Below are positions 7,942 to 25,575 of a stretch of DNA of 64,000 nucleotides, in pieces (positions within the stretch are counted from its first letter, which is position 1; every line of letters starts with the position of its first letter). This DNA comes from Chromatiaceae bacterium (GTDB lineage Bacteria > Pseudomonadota > Gammaproteobacteria > Chromatiales > Chromatiaceae). The position numbers were made by a program, and so were the translations under genes. A model generated the notes under the pieces. That model did no database searches and was not told the DNA's origin. It saw only the letters and a list, made by a program, of their open reading frames with translations. Location of the stretch: the NCBI GenBank assembly GCA_019356535.1, contig CP037918.1, forward strand, positions 930,001 through 994,000, in the 5' to 3' direction.

Positions 7942-8042
7942 GGACGAGGCCTCCTGCGGAGGGTGGCTGGTTGTTCGGGGTCGTGGGAGATGACGCAGTG
8001 CATGTCGGGATAAAGGTTCCTGAGGGACTGCCGCTATTGGCC

Positions 8043-8732
8043 ATGATGTCCGAAGATACGCTCAATCTGGCCGTAGGGGCACCGATGCAAATTCAGCCGC
8101 TGGTGCCGGAGGGTGCACCGCGCGAGCTGGTGCGCGTGATCGGCTACCTGGTGGGTTCCAGTCTTGTGGTCACCAATCCGGTGACCCGGCAAGGCAAGTA
8201 CAAGATCGTCCGCGAGGGCCAGGTTTTCAAGGTGCGCATGCTGCGTGGCGACACCGTGGTGGGCTTTACCTCGCGGGTGCTGGCCGCGCCGGTCAAGCCC
8301 TATCCGCATCTTCACCTGGCCTATCCACGCGAGTTCGAGCAGATCGTGGTGCGCAACTCGGCGCGGGTGAGGACGCTGATCGCCTGTCAGGTTCGCAATA
8401 CCCGGCAGCCGGACCAGCCTGAGCATTTCCAGCAGGCAGAGATCGTCGACTTGAGCGAGACCGGGGTGCGCGTGCAGTCTCTGGGCCCTCTGGGCGAGGT
8501 GGGCGACATGGTGCAGATCCTGTTCCGCCTGGAGGTGCTGGGACAGGCTGAGCCGTTGAATCTGGTCGGTGACGTGCGCAGCCGCAGCGAGCGCATGTTC
8601 GAGGAGGATGGCAGGCGCCGCCTGGTTCATTTGCACGGGATCCAGTTCCGCGCGATCAACCGGTTCCAGCAGGTGCTGTTGCACGCCTGGGTGATGGAAC
8701 AGTTGGCCACCGGGGCCGGGGACCTCGGCTGA
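8043..8732 (+). CDS. PilZ-domain cyclic di-GMP-binding protein (YcgR-like)
   Basis: Predicted 230-residue cytoplasmic effector. The N-terminal half (residues 1-105) resembles the YcgR/PilZN domain (LNLAVGAPMQIQPL, then a KYKIVREGQVFKVRMLRG core). The PilZ domain follows, with the arginine-rich c-di-GMP switch (R-N-S-A-R-V-R, about residues 105-111) and the D-L-S-E-T-G-V-R-V motif. Such proteins brake flagellar rotation or adjust secretion when c-di-GMP rises. The start is uncertain: ATG 8043 or 8046 fits the domain, but the frame stays open upstream to TTG 7971. The gene lies alone between the minus-strand operon 5337-7941 and trxB. Confidence 0.82.
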   Translation: MMSEDTLNLAVGAPMQIQPLVPEGAPRELVRVIGYLVGSSLVVTNPVTRQGKYKIVREGQVFKVRMLRGDTVVGFTSRVLAAPVKPYPHLHLAYPREFEQIVVRNSARVRTLIACQVRNTRQPDQPEHFQQAEIVDLSETGVRVQSLGPLGEVGDMVQILFRLEVLGQAEPLNLVGDVRSRSERMFEEDGRRRLVHLHGIQFRAINRFQQVLLHAWVMEQLATGAGDLG

Positions 8733-8751: not shown

Positions 8752-10898
<2,147 letters not shown>

Positions 10899-17825: not shown

Positions 17826-18491
17826 TCAGGGCTTCACGGTGCTCAGGCCCAGGATCTCCCAATCCTGCATACCGCCGCGGTACCACTTGATCTTGTGCGC
17901 CGGGTAGCCGAAGCGCAGCAGGTTCTTGATGTTGTTGGGTGACTGGCCGCACCACATGCCATTGCAGAACATGACCAGGGTCTTGGCGTTGGAATAGTCC
18001 CAGAGGCCCTCGATCTCCTTGGCACCGAACTGGTTGGTCAGGATCTCTCCGATGGAGATGGGGTCGGCGCCCTTCGCCGGGTTCAGCTTGGTCCAGGGGA
18101 TATTGACGGCGCCGGGAATGGTGCCCCTGGCAACCCAGTCGGGGGTGCGCGAATCGACCAGCATCACGCTCTTGTCACCTTCGGCCATGCGCTTGATATA
18201 ACCGATGACTTCGACCTCGCCGATGGTCTCCACGCCCGGTGCCAGCTTGATCGGCTGGATGCAGAAGGGCGGGCAGGGGCGCGAGGTCTTGGCGAAGGCC
18301 GGGTTGACGGTGTTCTTGGTGTTCTGATTACGCATGATCGTAATCTTCTTGCCGTTCACCGTGCCCTCGAATTTCTTCATGGTCGGGGTGATGCCGACCT
18401 TCATGTTGCCATGTGAACCCGCCAGCGCGCCGCCGGCGAAGGCGAGCGAACATGCCAGGATACCAGTGGTGATCAGCGTCTTGAGTTTCAT
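17826..18491 (-). CDS. secreted rhodanese-domain protein
   Basis: Predicted 221 residues with a signal peptide (residues 1-24, MKLKTLITTG then ILACSLAFAG). A conserved-looking spacer has a C-P-P-F-C pair (Cys73, Cys77). The rhodanese domain (about 95-215) shows VMLVDSRTPDWVARGTIPGAVNIPW and the active loop CNGMWCGQS with catalytic Cys176 and an additional Cys181. Rhodaneses move sulfane sulfur between thiols or other acceptors; the export signal places this one in the periplasm. Start at 18491 has GGGAGGA 8 bases upstream. Probably co-transcribed with the small acidic protein gene 117 bases upstream. Typical of sulfur-metabolising proteobacteria, but its substrate is unknown. Confidence 0.85.
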   Translation of the reverse strand: MKLKTLITTGILACSLAFAGGALAGSHGNMKVGITPTMKKFEGTVNGKKITIMRNQNTKNTVNPAFAKTSRPCPPFCIQPIKLAPGVETIGEVEVIGYIKRMAEGDKSVMLVDSRTPDWVARGTIPGAVNIPWTKLNPAKGADPISIGEILTNQFGAKEIEGLWDYSNAKTLVMFCNGMWCGQSPNNIKNLLRFGYPAHKIKWYRGGMQDWEILGLSTVKP

Positions 18492-18608
18492 GTTGAATAG
18501 TCCTCCCGGGTGGAATGCCCGTTTTGTTTTCATGTGATCGGTCGCGTCACGACCGGTAAGAGGGTTGGCTCTCCTTGCCGTGAATCGCTTCCGGTGCATC
18601 AGTGACGG

Positions 18609-19903: not shown

Positions 19904-21022
19904 TCAGGCAGTGGTCAGGAACACCCGCTCCCAGGTCCAGTACAGGCCGATAGCAGCTATCACCAGCGAGGCAGGCACCACGATCAGCCGGCGGTAGCTG
20001 TCGCGGCGTGACCAGGGCAATACCAGCAAGCCAGCGCTGGCGATGATGGCCAGCTGGCCGAGTTCCACCCCCAGGTTGAAGCTCAACAAGGCCGTGAGAT
20101 ATTGCGAATCGGGCAGGCCCAGTTCCGTCAGTACCCCGGCGAAGCCCATGCCGTGCAGCAGTCCGAAGCCGAACACCAGGGCCACCCGCCAGGGCTTGAG
20201 CTGTGGCGACAGGATGTTTTCGATGGCAACGAAGGCGATGGAGGCGGCGATCAGCGGCTCGACGATGGCCGGCGACAGCGCGATCAGGCCGTATACCGAG
20301 AGCCCCAGGGTGAGGGTATGTGCCAGGGTGAAGGCCGTCACCTGGTAGAGCAGCGGCCGCCAGTGGGTGCTGAGAAGAAACAACCCGAGCACGAACAGGA
20401 TGTGGTCGACGCCCTTGGGCACGATGTGGGTGAAGCCGAGCACCACGTAATTGCGGAAGACTTGCGCAGCAGACGGTTCGACCAGGCCCGCGATGTCCAC
20501 CGGGTCGCTGGGGCGGCCGTCGCGCAGCCAGGCGGTGTACAGTTTCTGCTCGCCCGGTAGGCGCACGCGCAGGACGTTGTCGCCCAGGCGCCGGGGCCAG
20601 GCCCAGCGCAGCTGCTGGCTGCCCGGCGGGATGGTGGTTTCCAGGGCCAGCTCGCTGGTGCGCGCCACCGTGGTGTCGGGTGCCTCGGGGATGCGCAACT
20701 CGCGCAGTTGCAGGCGGGCGGGGCGATCATCGAAAGACAGGCGCAGTTCCTGCAACAGCCCGTCGATACGACGCCGTGTCTCGGCGGCCAGCTGCGTGGG
20801 TGACAGCGCGCGCAGGGCCCGGTACTGTGCCGCTTGCGGGGCGTCGTCGGTGTTCTTGTGACGGGTGCCGATGCCGGCCAGCAGGGCTTCGAGATTGGCC
20901 TTGATGGTGATCGTGACAGCGGGCGCGGCCGACAGGTCCACGGTGATCACCGGTGGGCGCAGCTCGTGGGCCGGTGTGCCGGCGATACAAGACAGCAGCA
21001 ATAGGGTAACGAGAACGCGCAT
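19904..21022 (-). CDS. HupE/UreJ-family membrane protein (HupE/UreJ_2 type)
   Basis: Predicted 372 residues: signal peptide (MRVLVTLLLLSCIAG), a periplasmic domain of about 150 residues rich in beta-strand-like sequence, and six or so membrane helices from about residue 180 on. The conserved histidine/aspartate motif G-F-T-H-I-V-P-K-G-V-D-H-I-L-F and the later GLLHGMGFAGVL match the HupE/UreJ_2 group, which includes likely nickel/cobalt permeases. Metal transport is inferred from the family. Start at 21022 chosen because the signal peptide begins there. It is divergent from the DUF4198 gene and the hexanucleotide repeat 21037-21066 lies at the junction. Confidence 0.82.
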   Translation of the reverse strand: MRVLVTLLLLSCIAGTPAHELRPPVITVDLSAAPAVTITIKANLEALLAGIGTRHKNTDDAPQAAQYRALRALSPTQLAAETRRRIDGLLQELRLSFDDRPARLQLRELRIPEAPDTTVARTSELALETTIPPGSQQLRWAWPRRLGDNVLRVRLPGEQKLYTAWLRDGRPSDPVDIAGLVEPSAAQVFRNYVVLGFTHIVPKGVDHILFVLGLFLLSTHWRPLLYQVTAFTLAHTLTLGLSVYGLIALSPAIVEPLIAASIAFVAIENILSPQLKPWRVALVFGFGLLHGMGFAGVLTELGLPDSQYLTALLSFNLGVELGQLAIIASAGLLVLPWSRRDSYRRLIVVPASLVIAAIGLYWTWERVFLTTA

Positions 21023-21036
21023 GGAAAATCCGCTTC

Positions 21037-21066
21037 GGCAATGGCAATGGCAATGGCAATGGCGAT
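21037..21066. repeat. hexanucleotide tandem repeat (GGCAAT)4-5
   Basis: Four exact GGCAAT units (21037-21060) and a fifth GGCGAT sit between the start of the HupE-like gene and the DUF4198 gene. If the DUF4198 protein starts at 21021 the repeat encodes Gln-Trp repeats; if at 21072 it lies in the untranslated leader. Unit changes keep the reading frame, so length variation would alter leader or spacer length, not frame. Confidence 0.9.
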
Positions 21067-21071
21067 GCATT

Positions 21072-21848
21072 ATGCCCTTTTGGCTGGCATGCGCGTACCT
21101 GCTGGCGAGGCCGGTGCTGGCGCATGATTTCTGGATTCAGGCTTCGGATTTCCGGCCCCCACCGGGGGCGCGCGTCGAGCTGTCGCTGCGCGTGGGACAG
21201 GACTTCGGTGGCGAGGTGTTACCGCGCATCGACGAGTGGATCGTGCGCTTCGATTACCACGATGCGGGCGGCCTGCAGCCGGTGCCGGGCGAACTCGGTG
21301 ACGATCCGGCTGGTTACCTCCCGGCGGTGCGAACCAGTACCCTGGTGGCCTACCAGGGCGAGCGTGACGGTGTGAAGCTCAAGCCGGCGAAGTTCCATGC
21401 CTACCTGCGCGACGAGGGGCTGGAATGGGTGATCGCCGAACGTGAGCGACGGGGCGAGGCCGATTGGCCGGCTCGCGAATGGTACACCCGGCACGCCAAG
21501 GCGCTGATCTGTGTCGGTGAGGGGGCACCGGGCTGGGACTTCCGCTTCGGCTTGCCGTTGGAACTGGAGCCGGAGCGGGATCCGTGTGCCTGGCGACCGG
21601 GCCAGTCGTTGCCGATGCGGCTGCTGTTCCGGGGGCGACCAATCGAAGGCGTACTGGTCACTGCCTACCGCGATACCGATCCGCAACACAAGATTCGGCA
21701 ACGCACGGACGCCGAGGGGCGGGTATCGCTGCCGCTGGATGGCCCCGGAGTCTGGCTGATCAAGGCCGTGCATATGGTGCGCGCCGGGGATGACGATCCG
21801 GAGTGGGACTGGGGCAGCTACTGGGCCTCGTTCACCTTCGAGAGGTGA
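21072..21848 (+). CDS. DUF4198 periplasmic protein
   Basis: Predicted 258-residue secreted protein: a signal peptide begins at the ATG at 21072 (PFWLACAYLLARPVLA, then HDFW). H-D-F-W-I-Q at the mature N-terminus and the beta-rich body, including GVLVTAYRDTDPQHKI and ending WASFTFER, match DUF4198, a family often linked to nickel or cobalt uptake genes. An in-frame ATG at 21021 would add 17 residues of Gln-Trp repeat and overlap the divergent gene, so the shorter start is preferred. Divergent from the HupE-like gene, consistent with a joint metal-related role, which is inference. Confidence 0.75.
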   Translation: MPFWLACAYLLARPVLAHDFWIQASDFRPPPGARVELSLRVGQDFGGEVLPRIDEWIVRFDYHDAGGLQPVPGELGDDPAGYLPAVRTSTLVAYQGERDGVKLKPAKFHAYLRDEGLEWVIAERERRGEADWPAREWYTRHAKALICVGEGAPGWDFRFGLPLELEPERDPCAWRPGQSLPMRLLFRGRPIEGVLVTAYRDTDPQHKIRQRTDAEGRVSLPLDGPGVWLIKAVHMVRAGDDDPEWDWGSYWASFTFER

Positions 21849-21930: not shown

Positions 21931-22269
21931 TCAGCGGCGGCAGCGGGATTCGGGGCGTGTCTGCGCGGGGTCGACCCACACCTGGCCGTTTTCTACCTTC
22001 ACCCGATAGCTGCAGATGGGTTCGTCGGCCGGTTCCTCGTCCGGCTCGCCGGTGGCCAGGTCGAAGTAGCTGCCGTGCAGCGAGCACTTGATACGCCGGC
22101 CCTTGATGCAGCCCAGGGCCAGGGAATAGTCCTCGTGGGTGCACATCTCGTCGACCACGTAGAAGTCGTCGGCGGTACGCACCAGCAGCAGGCGGCGACC
22201 GTCGAGCTCGAAAGCCTTCATCTCGTCGACTGCCAGTTCGTCCGCGGCAGCGATGGCGACGAAGCCCAT
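21931..22269 (-). CDS. Rieske-type [2Fe-2S] ferredoxin
   Basis: Predicted 112-residue soluble protein with the two Rieske iron-sulfur ligand motifs Cys43-Thr-His45 and Cys62-Ser-Leu-His65, linked by DYSLALGCIKG and followed by GSYFDLATGEPDEEPAD, like the small Rieske ferredoxins that donate electrons to oxygenases. No signal peptide. It overlaps the upstream TrpD-fold gene by one base (TGATG), so the two are translated from one message. No oxygenase gene is in the window, so its electron acceptor is unknown. Confidence 0.88.
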   Translation of the reverse strand: MGFVAIAAADELAVDEMKAFELDGRRLLLVRTADDFYVVDEMCTHEDYSLALGCIKGRRIKCSLHGSYFDLATGEPDEEPADEPICSYRVKVENGQVWVDPAQTRPESRCRR

Positions 22270-23387
22270 CAGACCACCCGCTCGGCAGCACGGCCGGAAT
22301 CGAGGATGGCGCGCAGTTGCGCTGCCCCGTCGGCCAGCGAGTCGGCCCGGCCCAGATGGTGCAGGATCAGCGAGCCCGAGTACACCAGCGAGTCATAGGT
22401 CGCGCCCTTCTCGCCGCGCAGCGCGGCCAGGCCCAGTTCGGCGGCGCGTTGTGCCCCGGCGGCGGTGTCGGTGATGGTCACCGCGCCTTCACCCTTCGGC
22501 GTCTGCGGGATGTCTTCGGGGACGGGCACGCAGCGGTGCTCGCTGGCGATGCCGATGCTTGCCGGGTCGATGTCATGAGCGGTCTCCTCGCCGCCGTCGT
22601 GATAGGCGAAGTACTTGCCCGCCTGGCGCAGCGAGGGGATGACGCCGCCCTCCACGCCGCGCACCAGCAGCGCGGAATCGAAACCGGCATGACGCGCCAG
22701 GTCGGCATATACCGGCGGATAGGGCTTGTGCACGTAACCGGTGACGAAGTGGGTCTTGTGACGGCCGGTGATCGGCTTGGCCAGTACCTCGACGGTGGTG
22801 ATCACCGAGCGCTTTATCATCTTGCGGCGCAGCTCGATCAGGTCGTGCAGCTTGGGGGCGAAGTTTGCCTGGTCCACGTAGGCCCAGCCGGGGCCGTCGG
22901 ACAGGCGGCGCGCCGCGGCACGGGTGTCGAGATCGACGTCCACCCCGGCGGCGGCCAGCACATGGCGATGAGTGATGCCGTATTTGGGACCGACCTGGTC
23001 GAGACCATGGCTCACCGTGGCGACACCGGCTTCGGCGAGCAGGGGCGGCAGGAAGGGCGAGGCGGGCAGGGTGCGGTTGTAGCCGTCGTAGGGGTCGGCC
23101 AGGTCGAGTACCTCGTCCACCTCGGCAGTGACCCGGTCGGTGGTCTCGAGGATGGCCGCGAGCACGCCGCGGTTCTCCTCGCGGGTCTCGCGCTTCATGC
23201 GCAGGGCGATCAGGAAGATGGCGGCGCGTACCGGGTCGACCGCGTTCTCGAGCACGCCGAGCATGCCCAGGCGGGCCTCTTCCTCGGCGATGTCCTTGGA
23301 CAGATCGGGCCCGGTGGCGATGCGCTGGATGATCGATGCCATCATGGCGTCGAGTTCGGCGGGCCCGGGAAGGTTCGCTGTAGTCAT
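22269..23387 (-). CDS. TrpD-fold phosphoribosyltransferase-like protein (degenerate PRPP motifs)
   Basis: Predicted 372 residues with the two-domain fold of anthranilate phosphoribosyltransferase: helical N-terminal domain (residues about 10-80), then the glycosyltransferase-family-3 core. TrpD landmarks can be aligned, but key residues differ. The PRPP loop G-T-G-G-D-G is replaced by an A-D-P-Y-D-G-Y stretch, the K-H-G-N-R motif by S-H-G-L-D, and G-P-L-x-N-P by E-V-L-A-K-P. AAGVDVDLDTRAAARRL and DPASIGI remain. It therefore looks like a TrpD2/YbiB-type relative without normal PRPP binding. It is coupled to the Rieske ferredoxin and no tryptophan genes are nearby. Start at 23387 is the best-supported ATG. 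Confidence 0.75.
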   Translation of the reverse strand: MTTANLPGPAELDAMMASIIQRIATGPDLSKDIAEEEARLGMLGVLENAVDPVRAAIFLIALRMKRETREENRGVLAAILETTDRVTAEVDEVLDLADPYDGYNRTLPASPFLPPLLAEAGVATVSHGLDQVGPKYGITHRHVLAAAGVDVDLDTRAAARRLSDGPGWAYVDQANFAPKLHDLIELRRKMIKRSVITTVEVLAKPITGRHKTHFVTGYVHKPYPPVYADLARHAGFDSALLVRGVEGGVIPSLRQAGKYFAYHDGGEETAHDIDPASIGIASEHRCVPVPEDIPQTPKGEGAVTITDTAAGAQRAAELGLAALRGEKGATYDSLVYSGSLILHHLGRADSLADGAAQLRAILDSGRAAERVV

Positions 23388-23467: not shown

Positions 23468-24355
23468 TCAGTCGTCGCGCCAGCGACGGGTCAGGTCCGC
23501 ATAGGCGTCGATGCGCCGGTCGCGCAGGAAGGGCCAGATGTTACGCACCGGCTTGCTGCGCGCCAGGTCGATCTCGGCCAGCAGCAGCGTCTCCTCGCTG
23601 CCGGCCTCGGCCAGCAGCTCGCCCTGTGGCCCGCAAACGAAGGAGTGGCCCCAGAAGTCGATGCCGGGGTCGCCTGTGCGTGGCGAGGGCTCGAAGCCGA
23701 CGCGGTTGCAGGCCGCCAGCGGCAGGCCGTTGGCCACCGCATGGCCGCGTTGCACGATGCGCCAGGCATCGAGCTGGCGCTGGCGTTCGTCCTCGGGGTC
23801 GCGGCGGTCCCAGCCGATGGCGGTGGGATAGAGCAGCAGCTCGGCGCCCGCCAGCGCCATCAGCCGCGCCGCCTCGGGATACCACTGGTCCCAGCACACC
23901 AGCACGCCGAGTCGGCCGACCGCAGTGTCGATGGGCGTGAAGCCGCTATCGCCGGGTGTGAAGTAGAACTTCTCGTGAAAGCCTGGGTCCTCGGGGATGT
24001 GCATCTTGCGGTAGCGACCGGCGATACGACCGTCGGTGTCGAATACCACCGCTGTGTTGTGATACAGGCCGGTAGCGCGGTGCTCGAACAGCGAGGCGAC
24101 GATCACCACCGCGTGTTCGGCGGCCAGCCGGCCGAGGCGCTCGGTGGTCGGTCCGGGGACGGGTTCGGCCAGGTCGAAGTGTCGCGGGTCTTCACTCTGG
24201 CAGAAATAGGCGCTGTTGTGCAGTTCCTGCAACAGCACCAGGCGCGCGCCCTGAGCCGCGGCGGTGCGGATCTGCTCGGCGATATGCGCCAGGTTGTGTT
24301 CGGCATCGCCCTGGTGGGCATGCTGGGTCAGCGCGATGGTCAGCTTGCGGCTCAT
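23468..24355 (-). CDS. aguB: N-carbamoylputrescine amidase
   Basis: Nitrilase-superfamily enzyme hydrolysing N-carbamoylputrescine to putrescine, CO2 and ammonia; 295 residues, cytoplasmic. The catalytic triad is visible as Glu44 (LLQELHN), Lys117 (YRKMHIPEDPGFHEKFYF) and Cys154 (VLVCWDQWYPEAARL). DAWRIVQRGHAVANGLP and FWGHSFVCGPQGE are further family features. ATG at 24355 overlaps the aguA stop (ATGA), so the two steps of agmatine-to-putrescine conversion are coupled. Confidence 0.95.
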   Translation of the reverse strand: MSRKLTIALTQHAHQGDAEHNLAHIAEQIRTAAAQGARLVLLQELHNSAYFCQSEDPRHFDLAEPVPGPTTERLGRLAAEHAVVIVASLFEHRATGLYHNTAVVFDTDGRIAGRYRKMHIPEDPGFHEKFYFTPGDSGFTPIDTAVGRLGVLVCWDQWYPEAARLMALAGAELLLYPTAIGWDRRDPEDERQRQLDAWRIVQRGHAVANGLPLAACNRVGFEPSPRTGDPGIDFWGHSFVCGPQGELLAEAGSEETLLLAEIDLARSKPVRNIWPFLRDRRIDAYADLTRRWRDD

Positions 24356-25407
24356 CAGGTGTCCTCGCCGCTGCGCAGCGGCAGCGCTTGCGGGTATTGC
24401 ATGGTCAGGCAGTGCAGGCTGCCATTCTGGCGGATCAGCGGCCGGCAGTCGATGGGGACGATGCGCCGGTCGGGTACGGCTTCGGCGAGGCGGCGTGCCG
24501 CCTCGGTGTCGGCCGCTACCCCATAGACCGGCAACAGCACCGAGCGATTGGTGACCAGGAAGTTGGCGTAGCTGGCGGGCAGGCGGCGGCCGTCGGTATC
24601 GTGGTGTTCGCCGGCGAAAGGCAAGGGGATCAGCCGGTAAGGTCGACCTTCGGCATCGCGGAAGGTGGTCAGTTGCGCGTGCATCGCCGCCAGGGCGGCG
24701 TGGTCGGGGTCGCCTGGTGGAGCGGTGATATGCACGATGGTGTGCGGGTCGGTGAAGCGTGCCAGCACGTCGATGTGGGCATCGGTATCGTCGCCGCTCA
24801 GTGCGCCGTGGTCCAGCCACAGGAAACGCGAGAGACCGAGGTGTTCGCGCAGCAGCGCCTCGATGTCGGCCTGGCCGAGCCCGGGGTTGCGTTTCGGATC
24901 GAGTACGCTGGAACGGGTCGCCAGCAGGGTGCCGCGGCCGTCGGTCTCGATGGCACCGCCCTCCAGCACCAGCCCGTGTCGGCGTAGCGGGGTGTCACCA
25001 AAACAGCCCTGGGCATGCAGGACGGTGGTGATGGCGTCGTCGCGTCGGGCGGCGAACTTGCCGCCCCAGCCGTCGAAGCGGAAGTCGTGCAGGAGGGGCC
25101 TGCCATCGTTCAGGGTGGTCAGTGGGCCGTGATCGCGCGCCCAGGTGTCGTCGCTGTCGGCCAGGCTCCAGAGCAGGCGGCTCGGGGCAATACCGGCCTG
25201 CTGGAGCAGGTCCTGTACGTGCCGCCGGTGGTCGAGGTCGCGACAGACGCAGAGCAGGGGCTCGTCGGCGGTAATCGTGCGGGCGATCTGCAGAAAGACC
25301 GCTTCGACCGCTGGCAGGTCGTCGGCCCAGTCGGTGTCGGGATGCGGCCAGGTGAGCTGGACGCCTGCCTGCGGTTCCCACTCGGCAGGCAGTCGGGGGG
25401 TCAGCAT
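24355..25407 (-). CDS. aguA: agmatine deiminase
   Basis: Converts agmatine to N-carbamoylputrescine plus ammonia, the first step of putrescine synthesis completed by the adjacent aguB. Predicted 350 residues. Features are RLPAEWEPQAGVQLTWPH at the N-terminus, SDDTWARDHGP, FDGWGGKF, LVLEGGAIETDGRGTLL, HGALSGDDTDAHIDVLARF, and the nucleophile Cys333 in NGSLHCLTMQYP. Start at 25407 gives the standard N-terminus. The frame remains open to 25524 and a start at 25467 cannot be excluded because no clear ribosome-binding site marks either. Confidence 0.93.
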   Translation of the reverse strand: MLTPRLPAEWEPQAGVQLTWPHPDTDWADDLPAVEAVFLQIARTITADEPLLCVCRDLDHRRHVQDLLQQAGIAPSRLLWSLADSDDTWARDHGPLTTLNDGRPLLHDFRFDGWGGKFAARRDDAITTVLHAQGCFGDTPLRRHGLVLEGGAIETDGRGTLLATRSSVLDPKRNPGLGQADIEALLREHLGLSRFLWLDHGALSGDDTDAHIDVLARFTDPHTIVHITAPPGDPDHAALAAMHAQLTTFRDAEGRPYRLIPLPFAGEHHDTDGRRLPASYANFLVTNRSVLLPVYGVAADTEAARRLAEAVPDRRIVPIDCRPLIRQNGSLHCLTMQYPQALPLRSGEDT

Positions 25408-25575
25408 GGTATCGAGGAGTCTCTGAAGCAGTTTGTGAAACGCGACTTCGTCGCCGAAAACCGCCATTTTGGCGTTGCCAATCTTCGCAATGGCTTGCTG
25501 TTCCGCGCAATTGGCGCCATGCACTGGTGCATTTCGATCGGCGATCTCATCGTCGCAGGCTTGTTCACCGGTTCC

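Follow-up and report, generated by a model that had tools for sequence, protein, structure and literature searches.

A TrpD-like protein paired with a Rieske ferredoxin in a Chromatiaceae genome: a possible accessory factor for siroheme enzymes

TrpD2-like families are widespread and of uncertain role: YbiB binds DNA, and CnaT, a cyanobacterial protein whose family we take to be PRK07394, has a positive effect on nitrate assimilation. NirB, DsrAB and NirA all use siroheme, in whose synthesis CysG and CobA act; we know of no dedicated siroheme chaperone. In the excerpted text of a study of Dsr evolution, DsrN is held necessary for amidation of the DsrAB siroheme (PMC10504309), and the excerpted text of a neighbourhood survey of the InterPro family reports trp, deoA and YbiB-helicase contexts (PMC5445326). 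Against this background a TrpD-like protein of 372 residues, encoded next to a Rieske ferredoxin, was characterized in a window of 64,000 nt, the whole stretch of DNA analysed (Chromatiaceae bacterium, assembly GCA_019356535.1, contig CP037918.1, positions 930,001-994,000). Our tentative reading, to which we give a little short of an even chance, is that the protein, TrpD2-like in kind, assists siroheme enzymes that handle sulfur and nitrogen compounds. In the Chromatiaceae bacterium these would most probably be the reverse dissimilatory sulfite reductase DsrAB, the nitrite reductase NirB or both.

Fold and pocket motifs of the TrpD-like protein

The TrpD2-like protein is encoded on the minus strand at 22269..23387, stop codon included, as delineated from the ORF, Pfam and NCBIfam matches and an AlphaFold2 model. 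The probable start is the ATG at 23387, and an alternative TTG upstream extends the ORF to 23456. Two Pfam domains were detected above cut-off, Glycos_trans_3N (residues 18-82) and Glycos_transf_3 (residues 110-367). The AlphaFold2 model (mean pLDDT 92.4) superposed along its length on solved TrpD enzymes, with a best Z of 35.6 and an rmsd of 2.2 A over 321 residues at 17% identity, confirming the full-length alignability with TrpD claimed in a preliminary description of this DNA; the whole fold and an R-x-K-x-E helix motif are thus common to both. Fold matches among those listed were catalytic TrpD, and YbiB chains were absent from the best 50 fold matches listed, an absence to which we attach no weight. 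Amongst named NCBIfam families PRK07394 (NF005635) scored best at 134.9 bits, yet under its cut-off of 287, with YbiB/PRK08136 (NF006005; 93.8 bits, cut-off 185), PRK09071 (NF006564; 85.8 bits, cut-off 257) and TrpD (TIGR01245; 67.7 bits, cut-off 199.05) also under cut-off. The preliminary description had overlooked this TrpD2-like group (PRK07394, YbiB and PRK09071) as the nearest by score. We call the protein TrpD2-like because of its HMM ranking and its motifs. The tree, a quick one of 101 of 119 rows, was used for broad grouping alone, as many of its forks are unresolved, long branches come together and the trimmed trpD_G076 row is wrongly placed. A genuine TrpD that keeps GTGGD is encoded separately in the same genome (C1:389444, located by family profile search), and the window locus was the sole match when the TrpD-like protein was searched against its own genome (E <= 0.001).

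Among TrpD motifs we take GTGGD to be the PRPP loop and the DE pair to be the metal motif, with KHGN as a third signature. Where the genome's genuine TrpD has GTGGD, KHGN, the DE pair and the GVF...LLEP stretch, the window protein has DPYDG, SHGL, VI and GYVHKPYPPV, respectively; where a solved TrpD has GPLTNP, it has EVLAKP. The replacement of the PRPP loop and of the KHGN-type and GPLxNP motifs, previously noted from the sequence, therefore holds in aligned positions. Of the earlier interpretation, the conserved pair and the loss of the TrpD PRPP and metal signature stand, but the description of the site as 'degenerate' does not, since the replacement motifs are nearly invariant: at 139 of 372 positions the residue of the window protein is conserved in 95% or more of 81 homologues (window included), and 16 residues (G26, R63, K65, E67, E71, G102, R105, G137, R187, R193, T198, G217, H220, Y223, G244 and G247) are invariant in a 103-protein alignment that includes PRK09071-type relatives at 24-28% identity. 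Alignment A1 drew on 40 of the 80 near loci, that is the best 80 of 139 genomic stretches encoding a relative, plus 62 others, after removal of duplicates and of any match covering fewer than 330 columns; alignment A2 drew on 73 of the 80. Because the replacement motifs are themselves so constant, the old TrpD pocket looks, by sequence comparison, repurposed, that is replaced rather than decayed.

YbiB and the window protein have in common a Tyr-x-Gly in place of the PRPP loop and a His-Pro-x-Tyr-like motif, and a Y-x-G motif followed by basic residues, together with H-x-x-(Y/F), is seen again, though not without exception, in the aligned sequences of PRK09071 and YbiB-like type. The window protein might be a YbiB-like nucleic-acid- or protein-binding regulator of siroheme-enzyme operons, as has been described for CnaT, with the Rieske protein as a redox sensor. 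In keeping with such a role, the excerpted literature reports that YbiB, which belongs to this superfamily, binds both DNA and ObgE (PMC10123104) and that cnaT is a positive element for expression of the nirA operon (PMC9430850). The 'Cnat' of PMC7744380 is an isotope symbol and has no bearing on CnaT. However, the window protein is acidic (pI 5.6; family median 5.95 for 73 ORFs under 400 aa), unlike the positively charged grooves described for YbiB in the excerpted text (PMC10123104), and differs from YbiB further in its low family score and in being paired with a Rieske protein. YbiB Arg92 and Arg123 (numbering of 7y3p_A), which according to the same excerpts contact ObgE and are a conserved feature of TrpD2 proteins (PMC10123104), align with N104 and Y136 of the window protein; the invariant R105 and the nearly invariant K135 adjoin them, one position off. 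The acidity, the replaced arginines and the catalytic TrpD enzymes among the fold matches listed make a regulator rather unlikely.

The very strong conservation of the pocket and the complete fold of the transferase/phosphorylase superfamily would also suit an enzyme that is still active as a transferase or phosphorylase but uses a different donor or acceptor, working through the pocket DPYDGYNR / R-x4-K-R / HKPYP / RGVEGG, with the Rieske protein acting in another step. This is improbable in our estimation, as the TrpD PRPP and metal motifs are replaced, PRK09071 relatives keep the new motifs only in part and the genomic context described below suggests no substrate pathway but siroheme.

A third TrpD-like type, here called type C, was observed at L123:6404-7441, L124:5996-7045 and L125:5945-6982, with GPYDG in place of GTGGD in L123 and L125. 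The L123 protein scored 211.5 bits, over the NCBIfam trpD cut-off of 199, and so would probably be misnamed anthranilate phosphoribosyltransferase. Directly upstream of type C in all three loci is an ORF of 422-472 aa, and the one scanned gave a weak match to a CADD-like folate family.

The gene pair in the window and its conservation

The Rieske [2Fe-2S] ferredoxin of 112 aa is encoded at 21931..22269 on the minus strand, as identified from its ORF, Pfam Rieske match and ligands. At the junction TGATG its start codon shares one base with the stop codon of the TrpD-like gene, so that coordinates and junction agree with the two ORFs and the one-base overlap originally described. The protein scored 59.8 bits against Pfam Rieske (cut-off 20.3) and contains both ligand pairs, C43-x-H45 and C62-x-x-H65, as expected of a Rieske [2Fe-2S] ferredoxin. 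Its size and CxH...CxxH ligands are common to the dioxygenase Rieske ferredoxins (HcaC, AndAb, naphthalene, carbazole), but it fell under the cut-off of all seven NCBIfam families matched. Pfam and NCBIfam scans of nine window proteins between 17.8 and 25.9 kb showed no trp gene product, and no oxygenase or ferredoxin reductase that could be a partner encoded beside the Rieske gene, in agreement with the earlier remark that tryptophan and oxygenase genes are not nearby.

Directly upstream of the TrpD-like gene is an AguB-like (N-carbamoylputrescine amidase) gene (23468..24820, minus strand; ORF over-extended at its 5' end), which together with AguA (agmatine deiminase) occupies 23468-25524 on the strand of the pair; both window proteins are under their NCBIfam cut-offs. 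An AguB cluster was present in just 25 of 81 loci (window included), leading us to reject these polyamine genes as partners of the pair, and the AguB-like gene is probably a neighbour outside the mechanism. An AguA-like cluster was found in 7 of 81 loci, the AguA of the window having been dropped by mechanical ORF choice. Neighbouring genes for a sigma-54 regulator, cytochrome bd and a globin, identified by inspection of their sequences, occur in a subset of near loci only and were likewise rejected. Also present in the window are a rhodanese-domain protein (17826-18599, minus strand) with a weak match to a CXXCW family, which accompanies the pair in 11 of 81 loci counting the window, and two divergently encoded proteins at 19904-21848, a membrane protein of the HupE/UreJ type and a protein with DUF4198, whose mechanical ORFs overlap at their 5' ends.

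The best 80 of 139 loci came, by record title, from Chromatiaceae, Thiobacillus, Hydrogenophilales, Gallionellaceae, Beggiatoa and other Gamma- and Betaproteobacteria; Allochromatium palmeri DSM 15591, a purple sulfur bacterium, also has the pair (L104). By tblastn, a Rieske gene directly followed the TrpD-like gene in the same orientation in 78 of these 80, with the two hits 3-279 bases apart; the two loci without it were L079, where flank is present and gave no hit, and L090, where the contig ends. ORF clustering alone gave a Rieske gene in 68 of 81 loci, the tblastn figure of 78 of 80 excluding the window. With 78 of 80 related loci carrying a same-strand Rieske gene, the pairing is not due to chance, and it is not confined to this genome, a possibility the preliminary description had raised against itself, being conserved in Gamma- and Betaproteobacteria. 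The adjacency that it had suggested surveying thus holds in the near group, but of more distant window-type loci only 13 of 50 had a Rieske gene no further than 1.6 kb away (a class-wide sample contained 60 window-type loci, of which 50 were viewed, seven being unfetched and three close to the window being excluded). In some loci the gene lies upstream and not downstream (L169, L172 and L173), a rearrangement that speaks for the two proteins being functionally linked where both genes occur. The other 37 distant loci have no Rieske gene at that distance, which shows the TrpD-like protein to be capable of acting by itself or with a different partner. Searches of open-licence papers found no literature joining Rieske, anthranilate phosphoribosyltransferase and sulfur, nor 'glycosyl transferase family 3' with Rieske; fold and superfamily are known, and no description of the role or of the pairing with a Rieske protein was found among these papers.

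Siroheme-enzyme genes around TrpD-like genes

An initial set of 93 relatives contained the window-type gene in 41 genomes (at least 280 bits, or as a split copy in G053), and dsrA was present in 36 of these 41 (in G044 as a split gene). A link to autotrophy was considered and rejected, RuBisCO being present in 60 of the 93 relatives with no clear specificity by eye. In a class-wide draw of 274 genomes, window-type genes (type A; E <= 1e-40) were detected in 60 genomes, with relatives down to 37% identity, PRK09071-type genes (type B; E <= 1e-60) in 41, dsrA (E <= 1e-60) in 92, of which 87 were over cut-off, and nirB (E <= 1e-100) in 135, some by the reductase half only, with 124 over cut-off.

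Physical linkage of type A genes to siroheme genes was observed in distant loci. The type A gene lay within 25 kb of dsrA (5.0 to 23.8 kb) in 14 of the 39 genomes having both; in 23 of the 39 the two are on different contigs, so that linkage cannot show there, and in two of 16, G166 and the window's own genome, they share a contig at distances of 0.4 and 1.1 Mb. The Rieske gene, the type A gene and dsrAB occur together in L194, L197, L201 and L202; loci L194-L206 were chosen because coordinates showed linkage, and 14 of 39 is the unbiased figure. CysG or CobA genes were found within 6.5 kb of the type A gene in nine loci (L114, L115, L205, L208, L210, L212, L214, L222 and L225), leaving out L224 with its weak partial hit at the edge. 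In L208 the Rieske and CobA genes are paired and divergent from the type A gene, and L210, L212, L214 and L222 are CysG-adjacent loci of dsrA-negative genomes. None of the siroheme genes searched for was found within 6.5 kb of the pair in the best 80 of 139 loci, 39 of which have about 6 kb on both sides, and all dsrA, nirB and tetrapyrrole-methylase hits in the window's genome, which encodes both DsrAB and NirB, lie outside the window. Linkage to and co-occurrence with siroheme-enzyme genes characterize the families; no such linkage was seen around the pair in the window or at its 80 nearest loci.

Other neighbours were observed in the dsr loci. Genes for 2OG-Fe(II) oxygenases lie beside the TrpD-like and Rieske genes (L194:3749-4420, L202:5980-6579), the one in L202 overlapping the TrpD-like gene and L197 being similar by sequence. 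Encoded divergently upstream of dsrA in L202 are a Cas6-like protein (8037-8714; 183.6 bits) and a TauD-like protein (8911-9738), and similar ORFs were found in nine other loci of 16 compared.

The PRK09071-type proteins have the 16 invariant residues and siroheme-enzyme contexts in common with the window type, from which they differ in sequence (24-28% identity) and in that their gene is often inside a dsr operon rather than beside a Rieske gene. Loci were viewed for 32 of the 41 type B genomes, and in 12 of them the gene is directly beside dsrN (L120, L122, L126, L153, L155, L157, L159, L160, L161, L163, L164 and L166), with dsrP on its other side in all but L126, where the contig starts. 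In the window's own genome (L144) dsrP and dsrN are adjacent and the slot between them is empty. The dsr names rest on gene order and similarity to the genes of L120, and DsrA itself on TIGR02064; NCBIfam assigns the L120 protein to PRK09071 (433 bits, cut-off 257), and the protein encoded next to it gives matches to tetrapyrrole a,c-diamide synthases. Including L119, where the gene is near dsrAB, 13 of 32 loci are dsr-linked; two (L213 and L233) are in loci of the nirB/nitrate reductase/CysG kind and one (L151) has CysG and tus-like genes. The remaining 16 have no siroheme gene within 6.5 kb, and in 11 of them a YccA-like gene is present instead. YccA-like genes (BAX inhibitor-1 family), a name given from the look of the sequence, were seen near type B genes in L121, L151, L154, L156, L158, L165, L226-L229, L231 and L232, and hits also occur near window-type genes in L195 and L196.

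Nitrite reductase contexts recurred elsewhere. In L138 (G083, counted as neither type A nor type B), nirB, Rieske, nitrate reductase, CobA and CbiX-like genes run along one strand, with a divergent TrpD-like gene between nitrate reductase and CobA, some of the names having been given by eye. Eight of 13 plasmid records with a match were inspected. Four from Sulfitobacter and one from Ponticoccus, which are related to each other and so not independent, have the order nirB-nirD-nitrate reductase-glycosyl transferase-cysG, the nitrate reductase being annotated 'molybdopterin-dependent oxidoreductase' in one. In a Catenovulum plasmid the glycosyl transferase gene stands next to that for nitrate reductase, and cobA-nirB-nirD follows after a few other genes; an Acinetobacter record showed no nir or cysG context and a Photobacterium record carries no annotation at that place. 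The window protein itself gave no plasmid match at 1e-10. Open-licence papers yielded no report combining 'glycosyl transferase family protein' with nirB and nirD, or combining three of dsrN, dsrP, phosphoribosyltransferase and glycosyl transferase. No glycosyl or Rieske term appears in the excerpted text on Dsr evolution (PMC10504309), and the excerpted text of the neighbourhood survey contains no siroheme or Rieske link (PMC5445326).

Co-occurrence pointed the same way. Genomes with type A or B carried dsrA or over-cut-off nirB in 89 of 100 cases, compared with 69 of 174 without either type (Fisher p 1.5e-16, ignoring phylogeny), and the lax nirB list gave 94 of 100 and 72 of 174. By type, dsrA was present in 39 of 60 type A genomes vs 53 of 214 without (p 2e-8) and in 21 of 41 type B genomes vs 71 of 233 without (p 0.01); as these p values ignore shared ancestry they serve as guides only. 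The two types are nearly mutually exclusive, occurring together in one of 274 genomes, and the 92 dsrA-positive genomes comprise one with both, 38 with type A only, 20 with type B only and 33 with neither (p 3e-5). Those 33 genomes indicate that the TrpD-like protein is not universally needed, and eleven genomes have type A or B yet neither dsrA nor over-cut-off nirB. Physical linkage is the stronger evidence. This association of TrpD2-like genes with siroheme-enzyme genes had been overlooked in the preliminary description.

A sulfur-relay accessory acting with DsrC/TusE and DsrEFH/TusBCD, and not with siroheme, is very unlikely, for although a PRK09071-type gene adjoins a tusE-like gene in L151 and lies near a tusD-like gene in L129, and DsrC-like genes are near window-type genes in several dsr loci, such a role leaves unexplained both the nirB-nirD-nitrate reductase-TrpD-cysG operons and the CysG-adjacent loci of the dsrA-negative genomes.

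Proposed role

The accessory role for siroheme enzymes draws on the observed fold, replaced motifs, strong constraint, near-group pairing and family linkage to dsr, cysG and nirB, together with the invariant basic residues and the top family score of PRK07394. As TrpD-like genes occur repeatedly among these genes in separate groups, a shared siroheme-enzyme job explains the data best, and the window pair is one branch of a TrpD2-like group for which such a role is likely. Several results count against it: the 33 dsrA-positive genomes with neither type, the eleven genomes with a type but neither dsrA nor over-cut-off nirB, the lack of searched siroheme genes near the pair in the window and within 6.5 kb in the 80 nearest loci, the 0.4 and 1.1 Mb between type A gene and dsrA in two of 16 genomes, the 16 of 32 type B loci with no siroheme gene nearby, and the Rieske gene's presence in only 13 of 50 distant loci. 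In the mechanism we propose, the old PRPP cleft with its invariant R63, K65, R105, R187, R193 and H220 would bind a polyanion. The simplest candidate is siroheme, which has eight carboxylates, or else its amide or one of its precursors. The TrpD-like protein would deliver this ligand to, or prepare it for, the apo-reductase, and the Rieske ferredoxin may be a redox partner in some lineages, for example by keeping iron or the cluster in an assembly-ready state.

A broader proposal, which we regard as doubtful, is that TrpD2-like proteins of the window type, the PRK09071 type embedded between dsrP and dsrN and the PRK07394/CnaT type are unrecognised chaperones or insertases that supply siroheme or siroheme amide to sulfite and nitrite reductases, their PRPP cleft having become a tetrapyrrole-polycarboxylate site, with a dedicated Rieske partner in sulfur oxidisers. 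PRK07394 was over cut-off in one of 14 control genomes, presumably (a guess) that of Synechococcus elongatus. If true, the shared siroheme link would provide a single function to test across the TrpD2-like families and would inform the question of how siroheme is brought to the proteins that use it, and the conserved gene pair described here offers a subject for the study of dsr-dependent sulfur oxidation.
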